Of a stretch of DNA of 64,000 nucleotides, positions 21,779 through 57,200 are shown in pieces. The notes under the pieces are model-generated. The model saw nothing but the letters and a program-made list of their open reading frames with translations. It had not been told where the DNA came from and did not search any database. The DNA comes from Verrucomicrobiales bacterium (lineage in GTDB: Bacteria; Verrucomicrobiota; Verrucomicrobiia; Verrucomicrobiales; DEV007): positions 18,733 through 82,732 of the forward strand of contig JARGPH010000011.1 in NCBI GenBank assembly GCA_029213065.1, in the 5' to 3' direction. The position numbers and the translations under genes were made by a program. Numbering within the stretch: position 1 is the stretch's first letter; every line of letters begins with the position of its first letter.

Positions 21779-21873
21779 AGGAAATCCGATCCGCTTTCTC
21801 TATACTATTTGCCGAAGACGAGCTCTATCTCGAATCACCCCGGGCTCTCATTCGAAAAGCTCTCGAAAGCACC

Positions 21874-23625
21874 CTACTCAGTGATACCGTTGGCCTTCCT
21901 CCAATCAGCATTCGAGCCATTGGGATGCTGATTCCCTTCGATAATATCGTCGAAGGCGACCGAGTTCAATCGACGCCCCATGACCGAGTCCACCGTGAGA
22001 ACCTCGCCCTGCGCGTGAGAACCGTTAATGGCGGGGGCAAAGAACACCTCGAATGAGCCCTTAACCCCGCTGCTCCAGGCCGGAGCAGCGGTCTCCACTT
22101 TCACAAAGTAGGAGGTATTACCGATTTCAAGGCCGCTGAACTTCGCGATCCAGCCTCCTGACAAGTCGGCCACCACCGTCATCGATCCACCACGCAGCAC
22201 AGAGCCATCCGCTCCCATCACCGACAAAGTGATGACCGAGCCCGGCACCGCAGTTCCCGAATAGATTGGCATTAAGAGCAGCAATGGCGCGCCTGCATCC
22301 CCGCCATCAGTTCCTCTTGGCTCGGCAAAGCGGAACCCTTCGAGGATTCCCGACCCGCCCACTCCGAAGAACTCACCGATCCTGCCGCCGGTCGATCCAA
22401 CGACCCGAACCACGATCTGCTCTTCGACGAAGCCACCACTTCCGTCACTCACCCTATATATAAACGTTTCCACACCGACATCGCCGGCATCGAGTGCGCG
22501 GGTTGTAGGAAGATTGCTGTCCACTGTGTAAACAAAGTTTCCGTCAGCATCGATCGAAAGCGTTCCATAGAGACCGTCGACCTTGGTCATACTGCCTTCA
22601 ACGACCGCTCCGCCGGGGTTGGTCGACCCGCCAAACGGAGTTCCATCGAAACGGGTATTCACCACCTTGAGAACATCATCGATCCCCTCACCATTGATAT
22701 CAATGTCAGTATCATTCGCGAGCGCGTTTCCGCTTACCGTTTCCGAACCACCCTGAGCGCCTTCGAAGACGGTCACAACATCAGTGGTCAAGACCGGATC
22801 GTCGTTCGTGCCCGTGATCTTGATCGTTACCGTCTGGGTATCGGCTCCGGTTACTGAATCGGTTGCTGTGATCGTATAGGTCAGTGTCAGAGTTTCTCCG
22901 AGAGCAAGGAAGTCAAAGGTTGTCGCATTGCTGTCAAAGAGCCAACCGATCGTTCCAATCGTGCCGGGTGCGGTCACAATCGGATTCGGACTCGTAAGAC
23001 TGAACATCGCGAGAAAATCAGCATTGGTGAGAACATCCGGTGATCCCGCTACTCCTACAGTAGCGTTGATCGTCGCGTCCACATTTCCGAGGTCGTGCAC
23101 CGTGAGGGTGCCGGCAACGCTCAGTGCTGTGTCGGTCTCAGTAAGATTCTCTGCAGCAGAGTCCCCTCCTGTGACAACGATATCCGGAGCGAGGTTGTCG
23201 TTTTCGACCTCCTGAAAGTCGATCCGCTGCTGTCCGCCGCCGAAGGTGTAGGAGCCGGCGCCGGGAGTCCCTCCGGGAGTTGGATCAAAGTTCGCATCCA
23301 CCGCACCGACGAGATTGATAGTGTCTCCGGGCACATTCGTCGGGTCATTCCCGTCGATGTTCATTTCGGAATTCATGCTTGGCTTCACATTGAATGTGTC
23401 ACCGTCACTCCCGCCCTCGATGAAGACTTCGTCCCGGGCCGTCACGGTTCCTGACAAGTCAACCGTTCCGCCTCCCCCGTCAAACGGTCCCACCTGATCG
23501 ACCTTGATCTCAATCTTACCGCTGGCCGCAGCGAGCTCGCCGTCGGGATCGAGAATGAAATGATCCCCCGCGTTCAGAATAATATCCGCTCCGGCGGAAA
23601 TGTCTGAATCTCCAATCGTGATATC
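21874..23625 (-). repeat. B/C shared C-terminal block, copy in giant B
   Basis: About 580 residues match the end of giant C without large gaps. The order is ILNAGDHFILDPDGELAAAS, VFIEGGSDGDTF, YTFGGGQQRIDFQ, a VCBS-type unit (TLTVHDLGNVDATIN, FDFLALGETLTLTYTITATD), a cadherin-like unit (GNALANDTDIDING, YGTLSIDADGNFVYTV), then a tail with IGEFFGVGGSGILEGFRF, PGSVITLSVMG, FFAPAINGSH, LTVDSVMGRRL and GSNADWRKANGI. The tail could be a sorting or anchoring signal; I cannot name its family. Confidence 0.8.
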
Positions 23626-38600: not shown

Positions 38601-41600
38601 TGTCAATCAGGACAAAAATCGCTCCGTCAGCCGGATTCACTCCGGCGTTCAATGTCAGGTTGAGAGTCGCTCCCGCGCCGGCATCCGAATTCAGATTAAC
38701 GCCTCCCGTGACATCGATCTGATCGTAACCCGCAGCAACGCCCGGAGTGAGACCGTTGATTTGAAAAGCAAGTGTCGAAGCGCTGTCCAGCGTCAGCGAT
38801 CCCGTTCCGAGATCTTCGGCCAGAGCCAGATCCGGACTGATTGTGCCGCCCACAGAGCTAACGGCTCCGGCAACAGCCCCGTCACCGGCGAGAGTCGTGC
38901 CGACATTGACGGCTACCGCCCCGGTTCCCGTCGCCGATCCGCTCGCATTGTTCGCAAGAAGCTCCCCGCCATCCACTGTCGTTCCACCGGTGTAGCCGCT
39001 CCCCGTCGCGCTGTTCAACGCAAAGGTACCCGCTCCGTCTTTGGTCAGACTGCCGCTTCCACTGATTTCACCCGAAGCAACACTGTCAGGTCCGGTAGTC
39101 AACAGGGTCAAGTCATTCGCTCCGAGAGACACGGTTGACCCGAAAATGACATCTTCCCCGCTTAGAGCTAACTCGTCCTCAAGAACCACCGCGTCGTTGT
39201 AGGTTTGATCGCCGCTCGTTTTCACCGAGACGGGTTTCACTCCCGTCACCGCCGAATAATTCTCCGCCACCTGAGTGGCATCCAGCACGGTGCTTTCGTA
39301 GACGACAAATTTAGCTATTTCCCCGGCGAAATTGGAATATCCCTGAGGACCTCCCGCGACACCTCCCATATTGGCACCTCCGAGTCGACCGATGCCACCC
39401 GCATCGCCTCCGCTCCATGCGGTTATGTTAGCCGCCGCGGTGGAAGAACCGGCCAAAACACCGTTGATATAAAGCGTGGAAGTTCCGTTCCCCGTGAAAT
39501 CAAACGTCCCGACGACATGGATAAATTCATTTTCCAACCCTGACAAATCAGCGGTGACAAAGGCGGTTTGGGTTCCGAAACTGTTTTGCGTAACACTGAA
39601 GACCAACTCGCTGTCCGCCACTCCGGAGAGACCGGAGTTCGTCCCTCCTCCGAGGAGCAGGCCGATACCATTTCCACCGCCTGATTCAAAAAGCACTTCA
39701 TCTCCGGTCAAATCCGATGGACGGAACCACATCTCAACACTCACGTCGGAATTCTCGTCTAGCCCGGCTAAAGAAGCGACATCTGCCCCACTGCCCGAAC
39801 CATCGAATTCATAGGCCGCAGTGATGCCCGGCAGGGTCGTCGTCAAAGTGCTGCCGGAAGTGGTGTTCCGTCCTGTCGTAACGAGACTGGATCCATTAAA
39901 ACCGCTTTGAGATCCTGTATTTTCCCAGGTGGTGTTGCCGTCGTCGTCCACCGCAGCGTCATACTCGAGGGTGGATGGTGGCGGGGAAATAGCAATCCCC
40001 TTGAAAAGGGTGGTCCCGTCACTGTTCGTCGTGATTGACGCCAACCCGCTGTCGTTCGAGAGAGCGTCGAGAGAATCCATCCCCACGTCTGAACCGAACT
40101 GAGTGGTTCCGCCCGCCTCCGTATTGATCGTCAGCGCTGCGTCAACACCGGCAGCCCCGTCGAGCGTGTTGGCAAAAACAACCGTTCCTGTTGCCCCTTC
40201 GTTGGTGAAGGTAACCGAACTCGAATTGAGGAGCACCGCATTGTCAAACCGGGTCGCACCGTCCGTTGTCACGGTGACAGCTCCGGAATTGTCTCCGATA
40301 ACAGTGCGGCCGTCCGAATTTGTCTGCAAATCTCCCAGCGAATTCACCGAGCCGACACTACCCGAAAAGAGAGTCACAGCGGAACCGGATGTGTTCACAG
40401 TTAAATCCCTGTCATAGTCTGAATTGCTGGAATCAAGCGTGCCCGAAAAAGTCACACCGCCCCCGTCGATCACCGCATCGGCAACCAGCCCGACAGCACC
40501 GCCGTAGGTTTGGGCGCCCGTCGTTTTGACCGAATACTGAAAATTGGCTACCGCATCATAATTCCCCGTAACATCAGCTGCGGTAAGTGCGCCTTCATAG
40601 AAACGGAATTTGGCAATATCGCCCTCAAAATTCCCATAGGGAGCAGGAGTGGCTGAGGCGATGCTTCCGCTGGAACCACCCAACCGGGCCTGATTTCCAC
40701 CATCAAACCCATTGATCGAATTCGTATCAACATCCGTCAGGTCATCGAAAGTGGTCGACGAGTCATTATCGTCCAGAAGCACTCCGTCGACATAGAGTTG
40801 CATGATGTCTTTTCCTCCCGTGTCTCTCGAGTAGACGAGGAAAATTTGATGGAACTCTCCGTCCGCTGGAAGCCCCCCCCGTATCTGCCCCACCTGAACA
40901 TCGCTGACGACATTGCCATTGGAATCGATCGTCCAAATCACTTCATCGGCGGTACCATCATAGACCACCGACATACCGGTTCCGCTGCCGCCCGTCTCGT
41001 AGATGACATCAATATCGGCATCATCCCCCGGACGAATCCAGAACTCAAAACTGGCACTGGCATCCGAAGGATTACCCGGCAAATCATTGATCCCGATATC
41101 GGCGGCCCCGCCGCTGTAAAAGTTGCCCGTTCCATCGAATTGGTAGGCAGTCGAAATCCCACTGTGGCCCGAATCAACGGAGCCGAAGGTGAAGCCACTT
41201 CCGCTGTCCAGCAATTCAGGAGCGGAAGTCGTTCCATCGACACCCTCCCATACAGCAGAGGTTGAGGCACTTTCCTGTTCCGCATCAAAATTCAAGGTCG
41301 GAGTCCCAACGGGCGCAGGTGCGCCTCCCAACTGAGCCGTTCCATTGCCATCTGTAGTCAAAGAAGCCAGCGCATTCCCGGCTCCAACGCTCCCTTTGAA
41401 AAAGGTATCACCACCGCCCGGCGTGTTCACCGCGAGAGCAAACGCTCCATCTACGGTAGTTCCAAAAGTAACATCTCCGGCGCCATCGTCGGTAATCGTA
41501 AGATCAGCGGAAAGGATCACCGCATTTCGGAAAGTCAAAAGGCCTGCGCCATCCACCCGAATCGTGGAGGCACCGATCGTGACCAAGCCGTCCTGATTCG

Positions 41601-44600
41601 TAATCAGTGAGTTCAGCGCGTCGGTGCTTCCCACCGCGCCGTTCAGGGTCGTCGATCCACCACCGGTGGTATTCAACACAACATCCTGATTGGTACCGGA
41701 AGAGGAATCCAGCGTCCCCCCGAATGTAATATCGTTGGCGGTAACCGTGCTTGCCCCGCCCACCGTTACCGGCCCGTCGAACGTGACATTGTCCGCCACC
41801 GTAAGATCCGAAGTGCCCAGAAAAGTCACCGCAGCATCGAAATCAAGATCGTTACTCAGCGAGAAAACGGCATCACCATCGAAATCGGAAGCCCCCGTAA
41901 AAGTAGCCGATTCACCATTGATCGTCGTCGTCGCCCCATCAAATGAGCTCGTGTCGCCATAGGTGATGAGATGGCCCGTGATCACCGTCGAAGCCGCGTT
42001 CGTATAAGTCACCGCATCGGCATACGATTGCGCCCCCGAAGTCGTGACCACGGTTCCGCCGAACTCTGTGACGCCGTTGGCATTGGTAGTGAGAGATGAA
42101 ATTGCCCCTGCCAAACCTACATTCCCGCTGAAAATCGTGGCGCCTTCGTCAAGATCCGTTTCCGTGGAATTCACTGTGATATTGCTGGAGCCGGTGCCCC
42201 CGTCGAGCGTCTCATCAAACCTCACATTGGCACCCTCAAAGGTCACGTTCGCATTCGCAGTCACCGCATCGCCAAAGGTCTGGTCACCAACGGTTACGAC
42301 ATTCAAATCGCGGTTCGCCAAGGCGGCAATTTCCGTCGCGGTCAAGGCACGCCCCCAAAGAGCCGCTTCGTCAATATTCCCGCTGAAATCGCGGGCGGAA
42401 CTGCCAGCGGTGGAATCTCTGCCGATGTGAACGTCTTCCCCGCCCGAACCGGGCCCGGTAACAGCGGCGTTGCTGTTGAGAGAAATAGTATCCAACTGAC
42501 CGTCCACGTAAAAAGAAATACTGCTGTGAGTATTCGCGGTTCCCAGGGAGGGGTCGTAAACGGCAACCACGTGATGCCATTTCCCGTCGTTCACAGGAAT
42601 CGTTCCCTCGATTCCGCCGTTGGCCGTTTCAATCCGCAAATTGTCGCCGCTGATTCGGAATACCCATTTCTTCCCAGAGCTGTCTAGCCCCCATGCCATG
42701 ATGGCATCATCCAAATTACCTCCGGATCCACTTGTTTTGATCCAGGCCGACATCGTGATCGGTGACATCCCCGTGTCATCGACAATGCCCTTGTACCCGG
42801 TCAACGCCACAAAATCATCGAGCCCGTCGAGACTGACCATATCACCTCCCACCGGGCTGGTGCTCGCTACCACAGCGGCATCACCGGCAAGGGTTCCGTT
42901 GTTCCCGTTGCCGGAACTATCCGCCACGCCGCCATCCATTGACAAATATGCCTCCAATCTCGCGGGCAGGCCTGCGGCGCTTGGCGCACTCTTCGTGAAA
43001 ATCGTTTCACCGGAAGCGTCCGTCGTCAAACTCGCCAACGCCTCGGAGAATCCAACATGATCGGAAAAGGTCGTCGTCCCCGCAGCATTCACCGTGAGCG
43101 CCCGTGCCGTCGTATCCGAATCGACCGTGCTAGGGAAAGTGATGTCCCCCCCTGTCAAAACAAGATCAGCCCCCAACGTCACCGTGCCGCTGTAGGTCTG
43201 GTCGGCGCTTCCCGTCGTAATCGCTGCGCCGTCCAAGGCGATCGTTTCCACGTTGATGATCAGTTCGGTGTCATTCGCCGAAAGATCCAAAGCGGTCGTG
43301 ATCGTGAGACTGTCACCGGCCTGCCCGTTGATCGTGATCGACCCGCTCGGTGGCGCAAACGTGGTCGACTCAAAAGTCGCTCCGTCCAGCGTGAGCATGC
43401 CGCCCGCTTCACTCAGGGTCGCACTGTCCGCTGTTCCTGCGGGAAGGTTAAAAACAAAATCGGTCACCGTTCCACTGTTGATCAGAACCGGCTCCAGTCC
43501 GCTGTATTCCACTTCGATTGCCGCATCGGCATCCAAATTGATCTCACCGCTGCTCGGATCAATCATCGTGTGAGTCACCGTCGCAAAGTTCACATTTTCA
43601 AATGCAAGCGTATCACCTGACCCTGCGCCGCCGTTAAAGACAAGCTTCTGTTGAAGTGCTGTTCCTGCCAGGCCTGCAAAGTCTATCGTTACGACATCAA
43701 CCCCATCGAGCGTGTTGATATCGATTTCAGTGACTCCGCCAAGAGAGGAAAACGGAATGAACACTTCGTACGCGTTATTCTGAACTGATCCTGCGATGCC
43801 ACTTCCGATCGGCATTGTACCGGTCGTTTCCGTGAGAGTGTAACCCGTCGCACTGATTGTCAGCTTGAGCCGATCTTCCGAATCGGCGCCCTGCGCATCG
43901 GTAATTACGAGCGCCCCACCTGTAATCGTAACACTGGTTTCGACCTCTCCGACAAATTTCAGAACGACGTCATTCCCCGTTCCACCGGTATAACTGATCG
44001 TGAATACCGAACCACCCACCGTAACGGCGGCTCCCTCGACCAATCCCGCAAAATTTCCGCTAACGCTTCCTGCACCGGTGAGATCGATCACCGTAATTTC
44101 GTCACCGGGGTTAAGGGCTGAAAAATCTGTTCCGCCTGCCTCAATGATATTCAAGGAGCCACTCAAAGTGACATTGCCGGTCACATTGACTTCGTCGTGT
44201 GTAGAGATGGTGTTGCCGGAAATATCAAAATCAAGTTCACCGTTGAGGGGGACGTTGCCGTCTATCGCGAGTTCCCCTTCACTGTTACTTCCCGGCTGCA
44301 AATCTGCCCCGGCGTCAATTGTCACAGCACTGCCAATCGTACCAATACCGCCGAGCGCTGCGCCATCAGCAACCGTGACATCACCGGTCACGTTTGAATG
44401 ATCTCCATTTACGAGGAGAGTTCCGACGCTCACTTTGGTTGTGCCAGTGTAGTCCGAAGTTGTCCCTGACAAAGTCAAAATCCCGCTGCCGATTTTCTCC
44501 AGATTAATGTTCTTATTGTTGGCACCGCCACCGCCGCCAATCTGCCCTGAATAGTCACTCGTGGCATTGCCGGAGCCAACTCGAAGCGTGGCCGGTCCAC

Positions 44601-47600
44601 CGGAATTCGAGGTAAAGACGCGACCATCCCCATCAAGCCCGGCGATGGTCTCAATGCGATTATCTCCCTCCAACCGGAGAGCATTGCCGTTCATGAAGAC
44701 TGTCGCGGTATCAGGAATGACTTCGCTTGCATCCAACCGCAGGTAGACACCGTCGCCGATCATGGCGAGGTCTCCCTGAAAATCGTTCATCGAATTTGAC
44801 AGAGCAAGGCCATCGGCTCCCCCTCCGACTTCAGCCACAGTGAGCCCTCCCACCCCGGTGATTTTTCCACTGAGAACGTGGTAGTTGTTGTCCACTTCGA
44901 CAATGTTGGAAGTGGTCGTAGTCACATCATTCAAACTGATGTCGTTGCTCAATGTCACTGCTGCCGGGCTTTTAGTAATCCGCAGAATACCTCCATTCAT
45001 GGCGACAGAACTGGTTCCCAAGGCGTCGGAAACGGTCACGACAAGGCGACCCGCGTCAATCGCCGTCGTCCCGCTGTAAGTGTTGGCATTGCTCAAAGTC
45101 AGTGTGCCAGTCCCTGTTTTGGCGAGATTGCCGCTTCCAGAGATCGCCGAGCTGATCGTTCCCGCGCCAAGGCTCAAGGTGGAACCACCTTCGATGATGA
45201 TTGACTCAGTCGAACCTCCATTCAGCGTCCCTATCGAGACAGTCGCGGTGAGGTCAGGGCCGGTGATTTCAATCGTTTTGTTATCTGCCAGGATAACGGA
45301 TTCTCCGGAGTAATCACCACCGTTGATGATGATGGTACCCCCGTTGTTAACCGCAGCGATCGCCTCGTCGACAGTCGCAAAAGCGCTCACACCGAACACC
45401 CCATTCTGATTTCCGCTCGTTCCCGAATCCGCATTGGCAATCGTCTCGCCATTGTTGAACCCGGTCGCCCAGGCATCGTCCACGTAAACGGTGGAAACAT
45501 TGGTGCTGGCAAGCACGACATCATTACCGTCACCACCTCCGTAGAAAATTTTGTAGAGCGTCCCGCCGATGTTGATGGAACTGCCCTCAGGATAGCCGCT
45601 AAACGTTCCTGAAACGGCATCAACAGCATCGTTGTCAATGATCGTAAAAAGAGAGGCGGTCGGATTGGCGATCACATTAAATACCAGTCCGCTCCCGAGC
45701 GTCACGGTTCCTGTTACCGCAAGGCTGTCCGCATTCGCACCGTTGACGTCCACAGTAAAGTCACCACTCAGGTTGACCGTATTGGTTCCGAGAGGATCGG
45801 TATCATCGCCCGAGACACTGATTGTCCCCACGCCGTTGACTCCCGCTGAGACACGTCCGCTCACCGATTTGCCACTTGCGAGAGTAATCACACCGTCACC
45901 TGACAATGTGGCACCGGTTGCGACCACGTAATCATCACCGTCCGTGTGAGTCCCCTCCACTTGAAGCGTGCCGTTCGACACCGTAGTCGCACCGCTGTAG
46001 CTATTGGAACCGGATAACCTCAATACATCGGAACCAGTTTTTTCGAGGGAGAGAGCACCAAAGCCCCCGTCAGAGAGAGTGCCTGAAAAATGCATATTGC
46101 CACCATCTTGATTTGGCGCCCCGATCGTGAGGGTAACAGGCGTGGCTGATCCACTCACGATGTCTCCGGAAAGCGTGTAATTCCCCGTTCCAATCGTGGT
46201 GTCACCGAGCAGGGTGATTTTCCCTGAAAGATTGCCCTGCAGACGAATCCCGCCGCGATTTTCGAGGTTCCCCGTTCCGGAAACTTCGATATCATTGGCA
46301 ATCGTTACCGCGAAGAGCTGGGCTCCTTCGTTGATTTTGATTTTGGCACTGGAATCAATCGTAAGGCCACTGGAGTTAAATTTGTTGCCGGTTGCTGTCC
46401 CTGCAATATTAACTTCAAGCAAACCGGTGAACCCGCCACTTGCGGCTGAATTCAGATAGGTATTTCCAGTAGTCGTTCCCGAAAGAGTCAGAAGAATGCG
46501 ACCATCTCCGGCGAATGAATTGCTATAAAAAATGCTGTTAACTCCCGTGATTGAGTGGCTGATTAAATTCAAGGTGGCACCCGCGTCAACCGTTGCCGCA
46601 CCGGCAAGAGATGATACCCCACTGACTACCACGGTACCTGCCTCAACCGCAGTGACTCCCGTGTAGGAATTGGTTTCACCGAGATCGAGAACTCCGGTGC
46701 CCTTCTTGGTCACTCCTCCGGTTCCTGAAATCTCACCGGCAATGAGATTGTCATTTGAGTTTGAGGTGACTTCCAAATCAACCGCCGAAGAGTGCGCACC
46801 CAGGACAATACTATCACCTGTTCGTGTTTTAATTGATCCAATTTGGACCACAGTTTCGCTATTCGACGAATCAGCGGCGAGACGAAACTCCACGTCCCCG
46901 CCGGCAGCGCCTAAAATCACGTCCTCGCTGCTGTAATCGCCTCCATTGATGATCACCGTTCCCGCATTTCCTCCGAATGCCGCGATGGCATCGTTGATAG
47001 TGGCGAATGCATCGACTCCAACGACGGCTGCTTGAACTCCGCTTTCATCCCGGTCTCCGTCGACGGCTCCCGCAGTAAAGCTGGAATCCACGTAGACCAC
47101 CGATGGTATAAGAGGATTCGAATCAGAGGTGTAAACAGTAAAGGAACCGTCACCATTGTCCTTCGCGTTCAACGCCCACCCACCGGTCGCGGTAAAGGTA
47201 GTATTAAGTGCCGCATTGACACTGGTGATATCGACAAAGCTGCCTCCGAAAGCAGCGGTGAACGAATTATCCGCCGATGTATCTGCGAAATCGATCACTT
47301 CCTCATGCACCGTAACCGCTCCAACATCCACGCGAGCCCCATTGGTCAAATTGAGAAAATTGGCATCGTTACCGGAACCGTCGCTCATGTTCCAGTCAGC
47401 CTCAGAGGTGAGAATCCCCCCCTTCACATTAATTTCCCAGGAGCGAGCTGCATGCCCGCCATAAGAATTCAGTTTCCCAGTCCCCGTCGCATTGACTTGA
47501 CCATCGGACTCGATATTCACCGTAAAGGTGCCGTTCGAGTGCCGGTCCATGGTCCATTCCCCTCCATCCACAATACTAACCGTGGCATCAGCACTTCCAG

Positions 47601-48675
47601 TCCCATCACCCACATTGAAAACACCACTGCTTCCCGTTTCAAAACGGGTGTTCAATTCGACTGTGCCGCTGTTAAGGTTTATCGTACCCTGAAAGGTGGA
47701 ACCAACCTCATAAAGATCTGTAGCCGATCCATCCCGATAGACATTGTCGAGAGTAGCAGCTGTATCGATGTTAAGAGTGCCCTGGGTCGAAGGAGCAGCT
47801 CCCCCCCAGTTGGCCGAATCATTCCAGCTATGCCCGTCTCCACCTCCGGTCCATGTCGCATTCACTGTCGCAAAATGCTGTCCTTCAAGACTCAAGGCCT
47901 CAGCGCCATCCGCCTGATCTGCATCCACGATCCGACGCTCACCATCCTCAAAAATGCCATACATTGTCGAGGTCTTCAGCCCGAGTTCATACTCGTCGAG
48001 CAAGCCGAGTATATGACCCTGCTCATGCATAATGACGCTGAGCATATCAACGCCATCACTCGCGAGACCGTCGATATCATCACCTGACACGGCTCTCAGA
48101 AGTCCATCAATCTCGACAAACTCCTCGTCGAGCCACTCCGTATCATCCACGAACCAATCCGAACCTGCAGCGTCGAAATCCAGATAGATCGCATTCCCCT
48201 CAGCAGCGCCAATGACCGATCCCTCCAGATCAGTGACCGCATAAGTGATACTCTCCAGCGCCTCAATCTGCTCAGCGGTGAGACCACTCTCCTCCCATCT
48301 CGAAACCGCCTCGCGCGCGAGTCTCTCAATATCCTCCTCCGTAAAATCAACGTCAGTCCCCTCATCGAAGGAAAACCGGGAAACCGCGTCGATCCCGTCA
48401 TCAAGAGCTTCCGAGGTCTGAGCGATCGCCTCAGCGCCGCTTTGATCCTCATTCGCGGCTTCCTCCACAGGCACCGGACTCCCGGAAAAGAGAACCCTCG
48501 GCTCAAGCGCTTCAGCAAACAGAGGCCGGGACTTCGCCTTGACAGGTTTTGGCCTGCTCGTTCCGAGTGATCGACCAACGGAGCGGGTCCGCTTTTCGAG
48601 CCATTCCTGATAGGCGCGAGCCATGGAGCGGGCAAAAAACCAGCGCTTACGACGAGATGATGTCGTTTTATTCAT
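21874..48675 (-). CDS. Giant LEPR-XLL/metzincin-headed repeat protein B, 8933 aa
   Basis: This is a complete gene of 26.8 kb, for a protein of roughly 0.9 MDa (estimate). Layout: basic N-terminus (MNKTTSSRRKRWFF); LEPRVLF at 57-63; metzincin-like domain with HEQGHILGLLD at 217-227 and STMYG Met-turn near 238; GDGHSWNDSANWGG repeat; two YVDD...FGVSAFATVDEAIAA beta-helix starts; many autotransporter-associated repeats (LTKTGTGTLTLSGxNTYxGxT); six LamG-like domains, three at about residues 1900-3150 and three at 6600-7980; six ETSVEIVGG..LVITDIN modules; VCBS and cadherin-like domains near 8500-8750; and a C-terminal Ig-like tail from about 8760. Repeated LTTxAxGxT phrases link the LamG units. 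Only one cysteine was noticed (near residue 8000). There is no beta-barrel, LPxTG or PEP-CTERM. The start is fixed by its match with giant A. It probably forms an extracellular fibre. Transport route is unknown. Confidence 0.92.
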   Translation of the reverse strand: MNKTTSSRRKRWFFARSMARAYQEWLEKRTRSVGRSLGTSRPKPVKAKSRPLFAEALEPRVLFSGSPVPVEEAANEDQSGAEAIAQTSEALDDGIDAVSRFSFDEGTDVDFTEEDIERLAREAVSRWEESGLTAEQIEALESITYAVTDLEGSVIGAAEGNAIYLDFDAAGSDWFVDDTEWLDEEFVEIDGLLRAVSGDDIDGLASDGVDMLSVIMHEQGHILGLLDEYELGLKTSTMYGIFEDGERRIVDADQADGAEALSLEGQHFATVNATWTGGGDGHSWNDSANWGGAAPSTQGTLNIDTAATLDNVYRDGSATDLYEVGSTFQGTINLNSGTVELNTRFETGSSGVFNVGDGTGSADATVSIVDGGEWTMDRHSNGTFTVNIESDGQVNATGTGKLNSYGGHAARSWEINVKGGILTSEADWNMSDGSGNDANFLNLTNGARVDVGAVTVHEEVIDFADTSADNSFTAAFGGSFVDITSVNAALNTTFTATGGWALNAKDNGDGSFTVYTSDSNPLIPSVVYVDSSFTAGAVDGDRDESGVQAAVVGVDAFATINDAIAAFGGNAGTVIINGGDYSSEDVILGAAGGDVEFRLAADSSNSETVVQIGSIKTRTGDSIVLGAHSSAVDLEVTSNSNDNLIAGEISGTGGVTKKGTGVLDLGETNSYTGVTAVEAGTVVVSGVSSLAGAATVDAGATLNLISHSITGVNSIFYSNSFAGDGRILLTLSGTTTGNTYLNSAASGGFTGLLEVNIAGTATGNKFNSSGLTIDSSAKIKINEGAQLFAVTIANDIEVSGTGNLENRGGIRLQGNLSGKITLLGDTTIGTGNYTLSGDIVSGSATPVTLTIGAPNQDGGNMHFSGTLSDGGFGALSLEKTGSDVLRLSGSNSYSGATTVSNGTLQVEGTHTDGDDYVVATGATLSGDGVITLASGKSVSGRVSAGVNGVGTISVSGDDTDPLGTNTVNLSGDFTVDVNGANADSLAVTGTVTLGSGLVFNVIANPTASLFTIIDNDAVDAVSGTFSGYPEGSSINIGGTLYKIFYGGGDGNDVVLASTNVSTVYVDDAWATGFNNGETIANADSGTSGNQNGVFGVSAFATVDEAIAAVNNGGTIIINGGDYSGESVILADNKTIEITGPDLTATVSIGTLNGGSTESIIIEGGSTLSLGAGTISSAISGSGNLAKTGTGTLTLSNANTYSGTTAIDAGRLVVTVSDALGTSSVAMNGGILRITKSPAAVTLSNDISLNDVTTTTSNIVEVDNNYHVLSGKITGVGGLTVAEVGGGADGLALSNSMNDFQGDLAMIGDGVYLRLDASEVIPDTATVFMNGNALRLEGDNRIETIAGLDGDGRVFTSNSGGPATLRVGSGNATSDYSGQIGGGGGANNKNINLEKIGSGILTLSGTTSDYTGTTKVSVGTLLVNGDHSNVTGDVTVADGAALGGIGTIGSAVTIDAGADLQPGSNSEGELAIDGNVPLNGELDFDISGNTISTHDEVNVTGNVTLSGSLNIIEAGGTDFSALNPGDEITVIDLTGAGSVSGNFAGLVEGAAVTVGGSVFTISYTGGTGNDVVLKFVGEVETSVTITGGALVITDAQGADSEDRLKLTISATGYTLTETTGTMPIGSGIAGSVQNNAYEVFIPFSSLGGVTEIDINTLDGVDVVTIDFAGLAGTALQQKLVFNGGAGSGDTLAFENVNFATVTHTMIDPSSGEINLDADAAIEVEYSGLEPVLINSGTVTDFVFNLPAGTADSATLSEAGGMLTLDGATFESTTFAPPSGSITINGQAGDSLTITTALDLSANDTELIINVETIALDGAAITTGSADQTYSGTVTLGADLVLTGGDITFPSTVDSDTTARALTVNAAGTTTFSDHVGFSEALASLTTDASGETIFTKSAPSAAGLPARLEAYLSMDGGVADSSGNGNNGTLAGDAAVVASTSPVGGDMVSLDGLDDFVALTGYKGIVDDTGMSPITMSAWIKTSGSGGNLDDAIMAWGLDSSGKKWVFRISGDNLRIETANGGIEGTIPVNDGKWHHVVAVYDPSLGTANTHSSISFYVDGQLDTISLNSNAAVTGPGSGGEDVHIGRDSTAGSSARDFSGNIDEAALWGRALTATEIAALANRDLNVVTVGDQTFGDAVTANANVTFEGANVRFDETLDGGTGSSNITVNSTETDLDEGATIFSGNVGLAGAISSLTTNANGVTEFGGTVVTTSGAQSYADAVTYTNAASTVITGHLITYGDTSSFDGATTTINGESATFTGASDFDGDAVFSLSNDLDFDAAVTFLGTSDLTVADNVTFDGPVTVGGASTVTANDITFGGTLDSSSGTNQDVVLNTTGGGSTTLNGAVGSTDALNSLITNQDGLVTIGASTIRVDGAGLLTFRNAVILSADLTITDDGAGDVTFGTTVDGAFALAVNTPGGGDTFFKGSVGAGNALASLTTDGNGTAQLGGAPAPVGTPTLNFDAEQESASTSAVWEGVDGTTSAPELLDSGSGFTFGSVDSGHSGISTAYQFDGTGNFYSGGAADIGINDLPGNPSDASASFEFWIRPGDDADIDVIYETGGSGTGMSVVYDGTADEVIWTIDSNGNVVSDVQVGQIRGGLPADGEFHQIFLVYSRDTGGKDIMQLYVDGVLLDDNDSSTTFDDLTDVDTNSINGFDGGNQARLGGSSGSIASATPAPYGNFEGDIAKFRFYEGALTAADVTGNYDAVANFQYSVKTTGAQTYGGAVGLVADAVIDGGGVTFSGTLDSSNSDYDRDLTVNTSGSAVTLFSGSVGSVNSLGDLQTNSDGRTVIGDNSGAVTVTTDGATRFDNAVLLNSSSVTFTNEGATGTVVFANTLDGAAGVDAALTINTEAGGTTQFGSDVGMDSLDALSNDSGLASITTNSDGTTLFKGIAISPPPSTLEYDAAVDDDGNTTWENTGSQSGFNGSSLVTTGRNTTSGSTLTTTLPGITAAYEFDGSGSGADVASLAGLDENSDVSVEMWFRPSDLTGDEVLFESGGGNGIGLLLGGGTNSGLSGVADSELVFSVTQNSFGTQTAFVTADLSGLENEFIHVVGTFDFTGNGTSTLYINGVLAGSSTAAANITAWSGGDAGGIGRLGGANMGGVAGGPQGYSNFAGEIAKFVVYESTVLDATQVAENYSAVTGVKPVSVKTSGDQTYNDAVVLEDELALSGEDVIFGSTVSLGANDLTLLTTGPDSVASGEISGSGSLTKDGAGTFALNSATGSGYTGGTTVDGGELLANNASGSATGTGAVAVNVGTTLAGDGAVAGAVSSVGGTISPDLALAEDLGTGSLTLDSASTLAFQINGLTPGVAAGYDQIDVTGGVNLNSDAGAGATLNLTLNAGVNPADGAIFVLIDNDDADSDTITTAFAGYPNGSLFNLNDGTTDYVFSIHYDKENAETDTAGNNVVLISHGAAETSVELVNDGSGLFDLVITDINGGVSDDDITIVDDGTHYVISDSSLALTTAIGAANAERVDGNTIRVLKTAVTGGLIVDTVGDDISDGATDVVTFAGGNPIRFAGDIVISANVENTVLSQSLTSDTGDITFNGAVTVDGQHVVTSTAKDVFFESTVDLDGGSSWLTISNAGASTEMKGAVSGSGRLIKDGTGDLTLSATNSYAGETRLTGGTTIITQSASFGSSSLVNLYDNASLELGADGLTVANDFFIRNTAGGAKSISLDLAGANSGTFTGAFTHHEDTAGHFIVDVGADDDLTFSGSITRTVPTAGDAGLTKTGDGTVVLSGSGNDYGGITTVTAGTLVVDGVTGGSTTITAAAINGGIFQVINGGSVTVTNGVSNLGGAGSLLVDDGSMTVGNGLAVDTLRVGANSASNSRVTVSNGAVVVGNGTETLEIGTYDTNPGVTTTSTVDFSAASNVTIDVVSTLMGAIKTSGGSQVHGVLLLSDSGTNDVSSTSVIVGASPSSGNEANDGSDAADILSEIQFGGGTNTLNVDTLTLGDGKAQGKITIDATGELTISGDTGATTDANLGWNVTSTTGNQSHGVIDATGATLNAAFGALNLGRHVDGSGEGTGTLTFDGGTVTADTVALSTGAGNAFGTINQNGGTFTVANGVTETQTSALNIENGTFTVTAGGLQVDALHIAKQDAGNAGEAAKNATVTVQGGAVTIGDGGQTLEVGTRTGSDNGIPAGVGTLNLTAADTVAIDVTELLIGDLSGGAGGSGTFGTVTLSTVGNSSVTAGTIRIGNSNQNGNDAVLSKLTFGDKINTVNVDTFEVGKFKSRGTVDIANGGTLNLSGDGNPETDLHIGNNNIGTANNSVGIFDMSGGTFNATLDEVILGQHNTSSGSGTGTLTYEAGTITANTISLSDTNTSTNPQNTQGRLNHNGGSLTVGTVNLEEGASTVTITDGTVKVTSAFNLDSLAAGPSTVTLSGGVLDLSGVNIVDRAGGETFSITDGRIKDVNDFGIDYTQTGGTLQIGADNTADTMTVDGDFTSAAGATLEIELEGNTGPGAGGHDQLIVNDASDDLVSLNGATLELSLDYVPAAGDEFVIVSNLDAADTVDGTFDGLPEGQVFELQSTVDSKNYVFRITYAGGDGNDVVLTSFGVAETSVEIVGGNLVITDINGEVSNDDITIDFDGTNYTISDPNLALTTSIVGATRPDGNTIVIPGSAFPGSAIAGITLDTLGNAGATVTDIDTVDFTGTFTLNGNLILNGAELVKIDTGATLDFDAPDTHEIQFNGGNNTIEITGTGAVTNFGSIVETLAGASGVNNIVFDSGTLGDGAEDITVDNLFINSLDDDGGITYTRGGGTLQVDANLQLGGESAGGQVGVLRQDGGTVNVGGDLLFGGVATGSNLGGTYDLNGGSLNVTGNIIEGASDGGGGLTNANANVNSAQLQIDGGALTVGGDITVQRFAVGQDGGSTGTYSIAANQTVISTGTTSIGSNGTGTLFITEAGAKLISGNALVGETTSGNGTVTINHATAEWEITGAVSIGNNGRGVVNATDGTLDANGGIELGVLAGGDGHLVVGDGTTTPVVNVNGGNTETALLGVGKITVNSGTYNQHDSNIIVGQESDSNATFEVTGGLVEVENQLRINHGTGLIDISGGIVNVDSTLDVVNKAGATSGIVNVSGGVLNVATDGTANTGLFIGNFDEAGVTAELNVSGTGVVNVTGTGSSGGFRIANTGTNSSGDVTLTGSGQINVNGGNTELGDNGNGSYTIDGGTHTQETNNIVIGQNAGAVGSLTLESGSLVISVADLNVGNSGTGTFTQNGGSLDVSKDLNMGNSATGVGTAKFLGGTAVIAGGIDNAAVTGASGTIQIGDGTSTPTLTVSGGNFEVALAGDGSLDFRSGTVNLGDNNFITGQNVGSVATVTIGGYTGEAFLNLNGVNTHGDWNTNSGQGVVSVLANGTINVGNDINMGSSSDPDAGLDLTINGGTVNVGVGTPGVGNIDFRNNGPNDQITLQAGLLNGSGGSINLQNHPDSAFAFTGGTLRNFSSFTNANLTQNGGGSLLDIGAEDAVGTMTVEGDYTLTAGTVHFDLTSPTVHDQLIVNGVVSLDAVNGNITFDLDYVSLATDPDIVLISNNLTDAVTGSFASYPDFDGAGAGTFSEAFVLTSTADGEDYVFRINYAGGDGNDVVLESYGAAETSVELVAGKLVITDVNSDSQDNITITDDGTYYVITDPDNAMFTTTAGVTMVDGNTIRVLKTSVTDGLSVVSANGADTVGSNDTLTLAGPAMTEVDFDFGGDLTLDVETLNLQANLVGGYALTLTADGVDVFVSQVTGTDLGTEDNLIEIEGDITAMNANFRKSTSFGAAFFNGDNSGLSGTTTLHGNNARWGLGTDTSLGADGHTVRVGTDADPGQQWFMAKGNRTIASDLILDVGRFIIRNATIDGAASGAITIDGDVTLSQAGPSDIFLQRNLTINGVISGTTGLEHQGGQVFTITNAGNTFIGGVDLDNSNGTLVVANAGALGDAGNAITFTRSATVQFNSAMTVPQTVDISTGQIGTFDTNGNDVTLNNVISGDGALTKVGAGTLELSGTNTYAGETIVSAGTLRLGNFSALGDSGAGTTVISGAALDLAGFDQPSEVITINGNGTGVADTGALFTSATMTRDTGGGVPTNDANAGVDNLVLGSDASIGNPAIRFGLNGGTVTGAFTLTKVGSNDVWVGSNVQVAEIVVDNGIYGIQNNNADNITGTITVNASGTLATWRNITIEAPIAMNDGRFKTNSNTAGDNVSLNGGITLTGTNNRFEIISNVTVTSNGIISGTGSLTKIDTGVLILDGTADTYEGTTTVSAGTLLVNNTHTGGDDYSVAGGAVLGGTGTITTTGTVTVDGILATGDPDTAGGIGALTVDGDILINSQFQFEIDGANSDTLLVTVPTEEVTLGSAATLVVTDATDPAANSTTLVIDNEGSDAINGVFTSDGTTPLAEGSTVTSLDGNEYTISYVGIDGNDVVLFEGVAETNVDLSGGVLTISDITTENADAISISYDDVNDEYVITDPNLVLTTTGLVAGQFSRPDANTVRVSASVVNSIVVNTENGTPATVDTVTIDSLPNAATTPNTIPADITINAETINLNSDIVTGGNQSYNGAVTLTADVTLTGADITFAGTVDSDATERSLTTSVSGKLTFSDNVGGNSPLSSIDTGTTGTTYFTGQTYLNNLDTGTGLNLNFDASFDSDTTDSTLPELSGATGNGGTAVSSLIADDVNYIAVTGSSFAGIVGAYDLPGNLTGTTDSVRGLSGLELQINGVDGAPGSLAGAPDFAAATFEFWLKPDDLVGDEVIWETGGGRGTGFAFEDSELVFRFVGDGATEEIRYDLATDAANANALAGALATDDFMQISGTIDPANATIELFINGVSVGSFIGDNIGDWDGGDASGLGTVGGANMGGYGGGSVGFRPFDGQIAAMRLYGGILSQADIQQNFDAVLNGGATEITITTSGDQIFGNDVDLGINTVIEANDVTFDKTVNVDPAAPVVGALTVNSSGGGVTTFNGDIGTTVALAGLTTNADGTVVLNSGNVVASGPIAFNEDFTATVDVTLDGGTVTFGATSLFNGTADIDAAGDALFSGSATFSDVATVDAGSATLDDTVDLGGSTVVTATTIIANSTIDGNFDLTLNASGLTDLNGVIGGSTALASLTTNAGGSTELSANVTVDGAGGVTINDAAQLAGNVTIDSSDAGGDVTFSSTVDGAFDLTINTPGGATTFFEGSVGGVTALSSVTTDAAGLTRIGGASVVPTGTLTLNFDADNETSATSGVWEGVDGAAAFSELFNTGAGVSFGPADSTFPGITNTYSFAAGNSGMTGGSLDSLPGNPSDADATLEFWLRPEAGTGNYLVYETGGATDGSTLVYDADAGEIVFTADDLNIQHQVRGALPADGEFHQVTVVFDRDGLGANRDVFRLYVDGVLLDDTDPGSLFDATSMGNATGTLAGNNEIILTTDDLVNPVTVIYVDGPVGDPASISESGDTVTVTIDPGVTTAAEVIALIENGGAGTALTSGGILRAVANGADTGIVTAQAGTNLTLDGDDLPYTTEMNDFSGSDGAGLGAANGAIGEGSPLPVVPFVGDIAKFRFYENAQGVGNIQSNYDAVVNHVVEINTTGDQLFGDDVELRSDVEMNGVNVTFGGTLDSSDANEDRNLIVNTTGNGITTFTGVVGGNFELGNVTTNADGTTRILADFTVNGEAAAFFDSVEIGDDSANDGTLTITQNGNADSLIGFGGTVDTVAGNTANLEIKTPNDAVTQFAGDVGSIEALATLTTDAGGKTLFQPLAATGEDMFSDASVDTDGDDRWEDESGLSGLDFLLDTANGVSRVTGTSNLPGITGAYDFTGGATGNVGGALLKVEDSASDASFQTPSGDWSTENVSIEIWFKPDNLTPSPTNGQIIFEDGGGTGFGFFIDNNELRLRKAPGGGNVAYNLSTDPGSLLAAPATDEFIQAIGTYDVATGIMELFINGVSVGTATPGGNDWTGGDAAGLGTRGAANTGGIGGGQSSTESFDGQIAIFKLYRDQIVTADEAAGNFAAVAGFTNGRSISVTTTGDQTYNDDVCLAADVTMNAEDVTTAKAVDLSEQNLTVNVSGTDGEAQGVISGKGTLTKSGTGTFSTEAANTYTGTTTVDAGTWLVNGSHTGGDDYAVNGGVLGGTGTVTLATGKTVTTSGAGSIAPGDDGVGTLTITNDDTDSATAPNTVNLGGDFDFEIDGNTGVHDLLTVNGTVTLGGTLDLEELTAGTDSVNVGTTITVINNDGTTDLVDGIFTGQPEGSTITDDDGDDYVISYVGNDGNDVVLFAGTPETQVDLTGGVLSITDITSDSVNAVTVVYDEAANTYTISEADIANVIGTSGVTVISRTANSVVISAVGITAIEIDTTDPGSSVVGANDSVTVTTNGALAIAGEIAITSDDITIGDSDISAGADIILNAGDHFILDPDGELAAASGKIEIKVDQVGPFDGGGGTVDLSGTVTARDEVFIEGGSDGDTFNVKPSMNSEMNIDGNDPTNVPGDTINLVGAVDANFDPTPGGTPGAGSYTFGGGQQRIDFQEVENDNLAPDIVVTGGDSAAENLTETDTALSVAGTLTVHDLGNVDATINATVGVAGSPDVLTNADFLAMFSLTSPNPIVTAPGTIGTIGWLFDSNATTFDFLALGETLTLTYTITATDSVTGADTQTVTIKITGTNDDPVLTTDVVTVFEGAQGGSETVSGNALANDTDIDINGEGIDDVLKVVNTRFDGTPFGGSTNPGGAVVEGSMTKVDGLYGTLSIDADGNFVYTVDSNLPTTRALDAGDVGVETFIYRVSDGSGGFVEEQIVVRVVGSTGGRIGEFFGVGGSGILEGFRFAEPRGTDGGDAGAPLLLLMPIYSGTAVPGSVITLSVMGADGSVLRGGSMTVVADLSGGWIAKFSGLEIGNTSYFVKVETAAPAWSSGVKGSFEVFFAPAINGSHAQGEVLTVDSVMGRRLNSVAFDDIIEGNQHPNGSNADWRKANGITE
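24740..28830 (-). repeat. C-terminal LamG/ConA-like triplet of giant B
   Basis: Three more domains of the same subtype lie at about 28020-28810, 26040-27080 and 24740-25480. Each has an E-WL-P entry (TFEFWLKPDD, TLEFWLRPEA, SIEIWFKPDN), a LFINGVSVG or LYVDGVLLD hairpin and a GQIAxxRLY or GDIAKFRFYE exit. The 28 kb and 25 kb copies share GDASGLGTxGGANMGG-type strings, so the triplets look like products of module duplication. Confidence 0.65.
30640..31960 (-). repeat. A/B shared block, copy in giant B
   Basis: Counterpart of 1440-2760 in giant A. It begins with one of the ETSVE modules near 31860 (ELVAGKLVITDVNSDSQDNI) and runs through FFNGDNSGLSGTTTLHG to NNVISGDGALTKVGAG. Order, length and flanking module are the same in both genes. 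Confidence 0.7.
39240..42960 (-). repeat. N-terminal LamG/ConA-like triplet of giant B
   Basis: Three lectin-fold domains occupy about 42310-42960, 40540-41310 and 39240-39990. The first is the clearest (YLSMDGGVADSSGNGNNGT, WHHVVAVYD, SFYVDGQLD, GNIDEAALWGRALT). The second and third use FEFWIRPGDD or VEMWFRPSDL, an FxQIFLVYSRD or FIHVVGTFD strand, and a G-IAKFRFYE or IAKFVVYE exit. They are joined by repeats of GGTTxFxGxVGxxxALxSLTT type. Glycan binding is inferred only. Confidence 0.65.
47872..48675 (-). other. Head of giant B: LEPR-XLL motif plus metzincin-like protease domain
   Basis: Residues 1-29 match giant A almost residue for residue, 30-50 are a variable basic linker, and PLFAEALEPRVLFS (51-64) is identical. 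The protease-like domain (about 101-268) has SRWEESGLTAEQIEALESIT, GNAIYLDFDAAGSDWFVDD and the zinc motif with H217, E218, H221 and D227. M238 in STMYG is the probable Met-turn. The putative ligands and general base are all present, so nothing in the sequence argues against activity. Confidence 0.74.
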
Positions 48676-48784
48676 AAAACAATAAGAAGGGGGTATGGAA
48701 ATTTTTACATTTCCGAAAATTACTCAAGCACTTTCGTGAAACTCTTAAAAATACTATCAGAACCGAGCTTGTTTTCAAGATTGA
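48676..48784 (-). promoter_or_regulatory. Conserved leader/promoter region of giant B
   Basis: The blocks TATGGAAATT, ATTACTCAAGCA, TATCAGAA and TCAAGATTGA (plus strand) recur 19-28, 44-55, 80-87 and 100-109 bp from the ATG, as in giant A. On the minus strand a -35 TTGAAA (48773-48778) and -10 TAGTAT (48751-48756) are separated by 16 bp, which would give a leader of about 70 nt. No purine-rich ribosome-binding site precedes the ATG. Confidence 0.52.
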
Positions 48785-50693: not shown

Positions 50694-50709
50694 GCCCGCT
50701 CTCCACGGA

Positions 50710-52458: not shown

Positions 52459-54205
52459 TCAGTCAGCCATTCCATTCATTCTCCGCCAGTCGGAATTCGA
52501 ACCGGATGGATTTGCGTTCCCCAAATTCAAGCTGTCCATAGCCACGGAGCTTAAGCGGCGACCCATCACCGAATCCACCGTCAAGACATCGCTTTCGGTA
52601 TGCGCACCGTCAATTGCCGGAGCGAAGAACAATTCGAATGTGCCACTCACGCCCGTGCCCCATGACGGCGCAGCCGTCTCCACTCTCACATAATAAAACG
52701 AATTCCCGATCTCCAGCCCGCTGAAGCTCGCGACCCAGGCCCCTGAAAGATCGGCCACCACCGTGAGCGATCCGCCCAGGAGAGCAGAGCCGTCCGGCCC
52801 CATCACCGTCACCGTAATCACTGATCCCGGCTCGGCACTGCCTGTATACATCGGCATCAAGAGAAGCATTGGATCTCCGCTGCCGCCTCCATCCGAGTCC
52901 CGTGATCCCGCAAAACGGAATCCCTCAAGGATGCCTGAACCACCCACGCCGAAGAATTCACCAATCTTGCCTCCGGTCGAGCCTACGACCCGAACCACGA
53001 TTGCCTCCTCGACGAAACCACCACTGCCATCACTCACCAGATAGATGAAATTCTCCACGCCCACATCACCCGCGTCGAGAGCGCGGGTCGTCGGCAGATT
53101 GCCGTCGACGGTGTAGACAAAGTTTCCATCGGCATCAATTGAAAGGGTCCCGTAGAGACCATCAACCAGCTCGGGCGTTCCGGCCGCGACCGCTCCACCT
53201 CCATTGGCCGATCCGCCAAACGGGGTTCCGTCGAAACGGACATTGACCACCTTGAGCACGTCGTCGATGCCCTGCCCGTTAATATCAATGTCAGTGTCAT
53301 TCGCCAGCGCATTTCCACTGGCCGTTTCAGAGCCGCCCTGCCCGCCTTCGAACACCGTTACCACATCGGTGGCCAATACAGGATCGTCGTTCGTTCCCGT
53401 AATCTCAATCGTTACGGTTTGCGTATCCGATCCCGTAGCAGGATCAGTTGCTGTGATCGTGTAGGTCAGCGTCAGGGTTTCTCCGAGAGCAAGGAAATCA
53501 AAGGTTGTCGTGTTACTGTCAAAGGCCCAGCCGATCGTTCCGATCGTGGCAGGTGCGGTTACGATCGGATTAGGAGTCGTGAGACTGAACATCGCGAGGA
53601 AATCAGCATTTCCAAGGACATCCGGCGATCCGGAGATTCCCACGGTGCCGTTGATCGTCGCTTCAACATTTCCAAGATCGTGCACTGTGAGGGTGCCGCT
53701 CACGCTCAACGGCGAATCGGTCTCGGTAAGAGCCTCTGCAGCAGAATCGCCTCCCGCTACGACGATATCAGGGGCAAGATTGTCGAATTCAATTCCTTGA
53801 AAATCGATACGCTGCTGCCCACCGCCGAAAGTGTAGCTCCCCGCACCGGGTGTTGCTCCCGCCGCAGGGTCAAAATCAGGATCAATCGCACCGACGAGAT
53901 TGATGACATCACCGGGAACGGTCGCCGGATCGCCTCCATCGATGTTCATTTCGGTGTGGGTCGATGGCTTGATCTCAAAGGTATCCTCGTCGTCACCACC
54001 TTCGATAAAGACTTCGTTACCGGCTTTGACAGTCCCTGACAAATCAACTAATCCACCTCCGTCCGGCCCTCCGAATTGATCGACTTTGATTTCAATTTTA
54101 CCATTGGCGGCAGCCAGCTCGCCCCTGGGATCGAGAACGAAATTATCCTCCGCATTCAAAAGAATATCAGCTCCGGCCGAAACATCTTCATCTCCAATCG
54201 TGATG
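52459..54205 (-). repeat. B/C shared C-terminal block, copy in giant C
   Basis: Counterpart of 21874-23625, nearly the same length. Phrases include ILLNAEDNFVLDPRGELAAA, YTFGGGQQRIDFQGIEFDNL, LTVHDLGNVEATINGTV, FDFLALGETLTLTYTITATD, IGEFFGVGGSGILEGFRF, FFAPAIDGAH and LTVDSVMGRRLSSVA. The last 30 residues are the most diverged except for GSNSDWRRMNG. Confidence 0.8.
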
Positions 54206-57200
54206 TTCCCGCTTGAGGCCGTAACATCGAGGTTGCCGCCAACTGCCGATGTCGCCAATGCTACCGTCCCCGTATTCACAATCGTGGCATCGCTATCAAC
54301 ATCACCGGTGTTCACGCTGATCGTTCCGGTCGCATCGAGCTGATCCAGCGTAATATCGGCATCGGTTCCGGTCGTGGTAAGATCGACGGTGCCGTCGACA
54401 CTGATCGTGCCGCTGTCGGTGACATCATCCACTGCATCGATTTCAAGATTACCTGAAACATCCGAGGTCCCGAGGTCGATAGTATCTTCATCAACAAGAG
54501 TGACATCTTTCCCGCTCTCGATCGTGACGCTTCCAACGAAGTCGTTGTCCGATTCGTCGAGGGTGATGTCATTGCCCGCTCCGACGTCCAGATTCGTCGT
54601 TCCGGTGATATCAGATCCTTCGCTGTCAGTCAGAGCCGCATTGTTCGTGATCTCAAGATTGCCACCCACGGTGAGTCCGCTCGCGGTCGCATCAACATCG
54701 CCGATATTCAGCGCGCCCAGGTTTTCGATCTTAAAGTTTCCTCCTGTTGTTCCCTCCACGTTTGAAATCTGAGTATCAATCGCATCACCGATACCAACGT
54801 TACCAACGTCGCCGTTGGCTGCGTTGAACAGCGCCCTCAGTGAAACAACCTCTTTGTGAGAATCACCACCGTCGATGATATCGCCACTTGCCGTATCAAC
54901 TGTCACAAGCCCCGTGGTTTGCAATCCACCGAGAGTGATATCGTTTTCCGCATCCACATCGATGGTGCCGTCTCCGGCATCAACCAGTGCGCCGTCAGTC
55001 ATCTCGATCGCTCCGGTTCCTCCCTTCGCTGCCTCAATCGTGACAGTCCCACTGGCGGAACTCACATCGCCATCTGCGCCAAAGAAGATTTCATCGTCCG
55101 AGGCGAGAGTGACTGTTCCGGTGTTGCTGGTGATCGCAGAATTGATCTCAAATCCCACATCGCCACCGGCCGCATCAGGGGTGTCGGCGTGGCCGCATAT
55201 ATCAATATTCCCGATCCCGCTCGCCACGATCGCTGCCGTCGCTCCCGTGGAAAGTTCGACCCCGTCTTCGCCGCTACCGGTGATCGTGATATCACCATTG
55301 ACCACAGAGACCCTCGAACCTGCTCCAGTGATGATCACCCCGTTGCCCTCAGCGCCGCTTCCGCCTGTGCCATCGATCATGACCCCTGCCGCATTAGTCC
55401 CGCTGACGGTGGCGCCGCCGTTGATGCTGACGCCGTCATTGTTCGTCGGAGTGAGATCGGCATTGCCTGTGATGCTGATTAATCCGCCGCCCGAGGTGAC
55501 CACAGCAGACCCACCCGATACGGAAACCCCGCTGTTGAGCTCTCCTCCGGTGCCCCCGGTTCCCGTCAGAGTGATCGCGGCAGCGCCAGTCGAGCTGACG
55601 GTTCCCAGAACGAGAATGCCGTCATTATCCCTCGGGGTGTCCCGGTTGCCGGCGCCCTGACCCGTCAGGATGATGTCGCCGTCCAGACTCGTGACAGCCC
55701 CGGTGCCTGTAATTTCGATGCCGCGGTTGCGATAGCGCTGATTTCCGGCTGTGCCATCAATCTCAATTTCGCCGGTTCCGAGAGAGAGGACCGTGCCTCC
55801 GATCTGAACGCCGTCGTTGTCGTTCGCTCTTCCGCGGCCTCCTCCCTGTCCATCGATATCAATCAATCCGGAAGTGGTTTCCACGACCGCGTCAGGATTG
55901 ATAAGGACACCGACGCTGGCGTTGCCACCGGTACTCGTGCCGGCTCCACCCGTTCCGTTGAGAGTCACCGTTGCATTGGTCGAAGCGACTTTGGTATTTG
56001 CTCCATTGAGGAGGATCCCGTAGTGATCATTCCCGTTGGTGTCGGTCGTTCCGGTGCCTCTCAGAGTGACATTTCCATCAGTCGAGGTCAGGGTCGAACC
56101 GTCGGAAACAATGATCCCCCGGCGATTGTCCCCGCTGCCTCCAGCAGCACCTGAGCCGGTCAGGGAAATATCCCCACTGGCGGTGGTGATGTCTGCATCC
56201 GTCAGGGTAATTCCGGTGCTGCCGTTGGTGCCGATACCGTTTCCGTCAGCAGTGAGGGTCACAGCACTGTCATCTGTCGTGATACTGGAACCGGTATCCA
56301 ACGTAATGGAGCGATCTGCTGAAACCGTGACGGTGCCGCTTCCAGCCGCCTGACTGATCGCTGCGTTGGCCGCAAAAACGACATCGTCCGCTGTGATGCT
56401 GATATTTCCCGTTACAGAAAGCGGACCGTTGCTCGTCGCAATCGTGACGGTATCGTCATCTTCCACCCCGGGAGCAGGCCCGGCCGTGTCGATCTTGATG
56501 CCGGTGATGCCCGCAGCATCGATCGTGACGCTGTTCGCAGTTCGGGAGATCACTGTCACTCCCGAAGTTCCGATCACGTTGGCAATATCGGCTTCGCTGA
56601 TGGTGTAGGTGTTAGTCGTGGAATCAAACGTAAAGCTGATCGCATTCTCCGAATCACTGGTGATGTCAGTAATCTGAAGTTCGCCACCTGCGAGGGAAAC
56701 CTGTGTCTCGGGCGTGCCCGCGAACAGAACCACATCATTCCCGTCATTGCCGACATAGCTGATCACGTAGTCGTCGCCGTCATCGTCGGTAATCGTTGAA
56801 CCTTCAAGCTGCCCCGCGAAATTACCCGATACGAGATCCGTGGTGCCGTCGTTGTTGATCACTGTGATCGTCGTGCCCACATCGACTGAGGCTGTCCCCG
56901 CCGTCAGTTCGGCAAGGTTCAAACTGGAGTTAACCGCATCCAGCGTCACGGTGCCATCAACATCGAGAAGATCATGCGTCGCTGTATTGCCGTTAATCTG
57001 AAAATCAACATTCCCGTTGATCGTCGTATTCCCGGTAAAATTAAGCTCACCAATGTCATCCCCGCTGTTCTCACCCGGCTGAATCTCCCCGCTATTTGAG
57101 AGAGAGAAGATCCCGTTGATCGTTCCCGTTCCACTGACAACATTGCCAAAGGTATAGCTCCCCGCGGGAACTTCGGTGCGAGCGGTAACGTCGAAGAAAG

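Follow-up and report, generated by a model that had tools for sequence, protein, structure and literature searches.

Why do two giant genes, whose neutral sites have long since drifted apart, still share identical blocks of non-coding DNA in front of their start codons, and what kind of control could these blocks exert? The window, by which we mean the whole stretch of 64,000 nucleotides analysed here, is part of contig C80 of a Verrucomicrobiales genome of 5.9 Mb; the related genomes named below are Verrucomicrobiales MAGs. It carries three giants on the minus strand. Giant A (3..21545) runs slightly beyond the left edge; giant B (21874..48675) encodes 8933 aa, with a LEPR-XLL motif, a protease-like HExxHxxGLxD stretch, PATR repeats, and LamG-like and bacterial Ig domains; and giant C (52459..64000) has its start codon past the right edge, at C80:96420, about window 77688. 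A tryptophan halogenase gene and a sulfatase gene lie on the same strand between giants C and B (49002-52449).

The giant family

The genome holds seven paralogous giants with a common N-terminal domain, and their open frames span 7213 (A), 8949 (B), 8752 (D), 9787 (E), 4674 (F), 7772 (G) and 8435 codons (H, or H80, which is giant C of the sequence-only reading). At the N-terminus, the LEPR-XLL motif scores over the NCBIfam cutoff, while the HExxHxxGLxD stretch shows a weak matrixin likeness under the Pfam cutoff; the bodies contain PATR repeats, LamG-like domains and one bacterial Ig domain, and the giants look like surface adhesins. Among known families the LEPR-XLL proteins (NCBIfam NF012209, LEPR-8K) come closest, their motif being over the cutoff in genes behind the leader described here; unlike that leader, NF012209 is a protein annotation. 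Paralogues A, B, D and E have N-termini that are 73-77% identical, and their genes are partly in tandem. The N-terminal tree is mostly unresolved, with F grouping with A, B, D and E at 87/95.

Adjoining genes for giant extracellular proteins are described for the Giant1-5 cluster of Apilactobacillus kunkeei (PMC12863079), which resembles the present case in its consecutive giant genes; the bacteria are unrelated, and in the part of that report concerned with the cluster, different promoters are raised merely as a possibility. In two other genomes (G004:C57 and G087:C8), the open frames of related giants are 18544, 16801 and 18596 codons long. The first 4 kb of the contig that carries giant E (G000:C52) hold the apparent tail of another giant upstream of it, with an identical C-terminal DWRKANG; giant G (C71) may overrun its contig end, and G and this tail may join.

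Four blocks conserved before giants A and B

The ATGs of giants A and B lie at 21545 and 48675 on the minus strand. Block 1, TATGGAAATT, is found at 21563 before giant A and at 48694 before giant B; block 2, ATTACTCAAGCA, at 21589 and 48719; block 3, TATCAGAA, at 21623 and 48755; and block 4, TCAAGATTGA, at 21643 and 48775, every one of them an exact match. The distances from the A and B start codons that the sequence-only reading had given, 18/19, 44/44, 78/80 and 98/100 bp, are all exact. TATCAGAA and TCAAGATTGA have one further copy each in the window (28770 and 15352, respectively), as is usual for short words.

The similarity of the two leaders is not due to chance: local alignment of the 120 nt before each gene scores 33, whereas 300 dinucleotide shuffles average 10.7 and reach 21 at most. 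Over the first 260 codons, A and B are identical at 29 of 87 four-fold degenerate sites (33%), and A and D at 38 of 88. Since neutral sites are saturated, identical blocks of 8-12 bases are not leftovers of a duplication. This saturation, along with the recurrence of the leader at relatives in other genomes, bears out the earlier view that the blocks are under selection.

Distribution of the leader

The whole leader stands before giants A, B, D and E of the genome. A sequence-only profile built from eleven leaders finds these four with E-values of 2e-20 to 9e-14, the next match in the genome (E-value 0.002) covering blocks 2 and 1 only; it also finds seven giants in five related genomes (1e-17 to 2e-10), with scores that include the profile's own training sequences. 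When only the seven relatives went into the profile, A, D, E and B ranked first to fourth of 711 upstream regions, a set that represents 1.35 Mb of the 5.9-Mb genome, taken in stretches and with rough ORF-based gene calls. The search of the genome and of relatives that the sequence-only reading had called for thus extends the pattern to D, E and the seven giants of related genomes, while limiting the whole leader to four of the seven giants.

Comparison of the upstream sequences revealed no recognisable leader, and neither of the two modules described below, before giants F and G, even though at the protein start these two stand about as near to A as the giants of other species do; the region is therefore dispensable for a giant. 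Giants of other genomes have the leader in common at 43-62% protein identity, whereas F, at 65%, is without it; from its place in the tree, F has likely lost the leader.

A promoter-like module formed by blocks 4 and 3

Read in the sense direction, blocks 4 and 3 form the pattern CTTGnn-N16-TAnnnn, with a TG one base 5' of the TA; we refer to this module as P1. Before giant B (48751..48778, minus strand) it consists of a putative -35 element TTGAAA (48778-48773), a 16-nt spacer ending in TGA and a putative -10 element TAGTAT (48756-48751), and before giant A (21619..21646, minus strand) of TTGATT (21646-21641), a 16-nt spacer with the same ending and TAAAAG (21624-21619). Sigma70-type promoters with an extended -10 are built in this way, with TTG and TGnTA held at a fixed 16-bp spacing. 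P1 resembles such (TGn) promoters in its -35 TTG, the 16-bp spacer, the TG one base before the -10 and the initial TA; it differs in a -10 that compares poorly with TATAAT, in a start site predicted from sequence alone, and in being conserved as a block across paralogous giant genes.

The pattern TTG-N16-TGnTA occurs at -99 to -120 before five of seven giants of the genome and six of seven giants of relatives (11/14). In the control, it was present in 10 of 711 upstream regions, five of them giants, leaving 5 of 706 others, and the antisense control gave 1 of 711. The pattern first came to light in A, B, D, E, H and two of the relatives; four of the five relatives scored later hold it. The hexamers are 16 bp apart in 11 of the 14 giants, and the -10 hexamer has T at its first position in 10 of 11 and A at its second in 11 of 11, the remaining positions being poor matches. 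Hexamers such as TAAAAG, TAGTAT, TATGTA and TACAAA match TATAAT poorly, and the preceding TG may compensate for this. An automatic promoter scan found P1 at B and missed it at A, because it accepts a -10 only if the last base is T.

Giant C, which the sequence-only reading had singled out as a place to look for the four-block pattern, has P1 at -100 without blocks 2 and 1, so that only this half of the pattern extends to it.

Blocks 2 and 1 and a lineage-wide motif

Blocks 2 and 1 look like a second promoter-type module, P2. Before giant B (48693..48727, minus strand) it comprises TTGAGT (48727-48722), a degenerate -10 AAAAAT (48706-48701) and TTCCATAC (48700-48693), and before giant A (21562..21597, minus strand) TTGAGT (21597-21592), AGTAAT (21575-21570) and TTCCATAA (21569-21562). 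In outline the module runs CTTG, N17/18, a weak -10 and TTCCATAA, with a conserved core of CTTG(C/A)(G/A)T and AATTTCCATAA. The distance from TTGnnn to the six-base -10 position is 15-16 bp in nearly all leaders; TTG is present in 11 of 11 and the preceding C in 10 of 11, while the -10 core is degenerate.

Block 1 is not private to the giants but appears from its distribution to be a lineage-wide promoter-type motif, and by itself is thus no mark of a giant-specific regulon. Allowing one mismatch at most, ATAATTTCCATA is matched 39 times in the genome, and its reversed pattern 9 times; with up to two mismatches, TATAATTTCCATAA has 62 against 11. The excess of TATAATTTCCATAA is seen in every tested genome of the genus and family, and is weaker in other families of the order. 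As an upstream motif it is about 2- to 23-fold over the reversed control in the family (the genome itself and 21 related genomes were counted), and of 18 family genomes 16 reach 3-fold or more. In the 1.35 Mb, 14 of 15 block 1 motif sites are non-coding, while both control matches are coding; the site of giant A is among the 15, and that of giant B is one mismatch from ATAATTTCCATA.

In two other genera, profile matches precede relatives of one unrelated P-loop gene, at sites that read CTTGC, about 16-17 bp, TATAAT or TATATT, then TTCCA or TTTCA. Generic TATAATTTCCATAA sites have a TTG or GTG -35 at spacer 17 in only 9 of 53 cases, so the motif may also be an operator or initiator element. Two further candidates were discarded: a tandem array of 9-bp operators, as the peaks at plus/minus 9 are self-overlap of the motif, and CTTGAGTAA as a general upstream motif, a word that is not enriched once the giants are set aside. 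Separately, AACCCTGT/ACAGGGTT octamers exceed expectation 13- to 20-fold on both strands of the 711 upstream regions, and are perhaps a small interspersed repeat.

RNA structure, translation signals and the coding start

The sequence-only reading had left open whether the leader acts on transcription or translation. RNAalifold found no consensus pairs (0) on 11 leaders, and Rfam gave no match in the window; we thus rejected a structured RNA leader or riboswitch. Single leaders fold mostly near shuffled values, with one relative alone below a z of -2, and control by leader structure is unlikely. Inspection of the sequences revealed no Shine-Dalgarno before the giants; by the same means a conserved leader peptide was rejected, as the short TTG-started frames of A and B differ. 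Of the common control once proposed for the giants, shared transcription is a plausible part, whereas nothing in the leader supports control of translation.

The coding start itself is conserved at the level of nucleotides. Codons 8-16 of giant A (21498..21524, minus strand; CGT CGT AAG CGC TGG TTT TTT GCC CGT, encoding RRKRWFFAR) are more conserved in nucleotides than in protein, and those of giant B (48628..48654, minus strand) share the conserved 26-nt core of A. Synonymous identity over these codons is 0.87 among the genome's own paralogues and 0.78 among all, against 0.33 expected, and returns to near expectation after codon 16. The stretch, CGTCGTAAGCGCTGGTTTTTTGCCCG, is also present in D, E, F and the relatives, and nearly so in G. 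F keeps it and G nearly keeps it although both are without the leader; it appears to be a separate nucleotide-level constraint, apart from the leader. It includes a candidate 5-bp hairpin, ACGAC-N8-GTCGT, which is invariant, so that covariation is uninformative.

A strong hairpin (21746..21785, minus strand; -24.9 kcal/mol, z -4.5) lies between the giant B stop and the promoter region of giant A. It has no clean T-run behind it, and is a possible terminator of B.

A model for the upstream region

We consider it likely, though well short of certain, that the blocks serve as recognition elements in a conserved promoter region, perhaps a tandem one, lying before one branch of the LEPR-XLL giant family. 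Block 4 would be the -35 element (CTTGnn) and block 3 the extended -10 (TGnTAnnnn), exactly 16 bp apart, together forming promoter P1, from which transcripts would begin some 65-70 nt ahead of the ATG. Blocks 2 and 1 would form the promoter-like P2, with CTTG(A/C)(G/A)T, 15-16 bp, a degenerate -10 and TTCCATAA, its 3' part corresponding to the TATAATTTCCATAA motif that is found lineage-wide before many unrelated genes. P2 may either start a short-leader transcript or bind a regulator that acts on P1. The earlier notion of a shared control region thus holds in its conservation across five other genomes and in the relatives-only profile, but the region reads as promoter DNA rather than as a single transcribed leader.

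The position and spacing of the elements, their conservation across genomes, the rarity of P1 elsewhere and the lineage-wide enrichment of block 1 are properties of the DNA itself; what we infer from them is use of the P1 and P2 elements by RNA polymerase carrying the housekeeping sigma. If this holds, the giants would be transcribed together: common transcription of A, B, D, E and partly C is plausible, and one and the same general machinery probably turns on the giants with the leader. Within the phylum, Cappable-seq of Akkermansia muciniphila revealed -35/TATAAT promoters, with about 10% of transcripts leaderless (PMC4782308). The likeness extends to two-box promoters and common leaderless starts; as far as that report's account of promoter motifs goes, no conserved TTCCATAA 3' of the -10 is described.

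The same blocks would read differently if P1 were the sole promoter and blocks 2 and 1 were a 5'-UTR RNA element that tunes translation of the giants, bound by a protein, a small RNA or ribosomal protein S1. Transcription from P1 would include both blocks, the UTRs are rich in pyrimidines close to the ATG and show no Shine-Dalgarno, and codons 8-16 are constrained at the nucleotide level. Yet no structure is conserved, the CTTG + TATAATTTCCA layout is found elsewhere as a promoter-like unit, and block 1 lies at a very variable distance from the start codon at other genes, as expected of DNA and not of a start-site RNA element; we regard this explanation as unlikely. We give slightly less credence still to block 1 (ATTTCCATAA, of which block 2 echoes one half) being the operator of a lineage-wide regulator, placed over the -10, with the giants in its regulon. 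That the giants keep TTCCATAA even without a -10 core, that the motif is enriched lineage-wide and that generic sites have a weak -35 signal would all fit; against this, no candidate regulator was identified, the sites precede functionally mixed genes, and the seeming 9-bp period arises from the motif overlapping itself.

A passive origin, in which recent duplication or gene conversion of gene 5' ends left a functionless similarity, is very improbable. It could draw on the relatedness and partly tandem arrangement of A, B, D and E, but is hard to reconcile with saturated four-fold sites, with invariant P1 spacing, or with a leader that is shared by more distant giants of other genomes and missing from the closer F, and the relatives-only profile largely refutes it.

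Going beyond the promoter model, one could imagine a dedicated, so far unrecognised regulatory unit for Verrucomicrobiales giants, made up of a tandem promoter ending in TTCCATAA and a signal in the first 16 codons. TTCCATAA would then be a lineage-wide initiator or operator, and the codon signal would control ribosome entry on mRNAs of 14-55 kb; we hold this combination to be unlikely. The promoter model predicts transcript starts for genes of 14-55 kb in an uncultured lineage, and indicates which of the seven giants are likely expressed together. It also brings to light TATAATTTCCATAA as a promoter-type motif of the whole lineage, whose conserved stretch 3' of the -10 has no ready explanation. 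If transcription does start at these sites, general promoters, and not a special leader RNA, would set the expression of the giant surface proteins.
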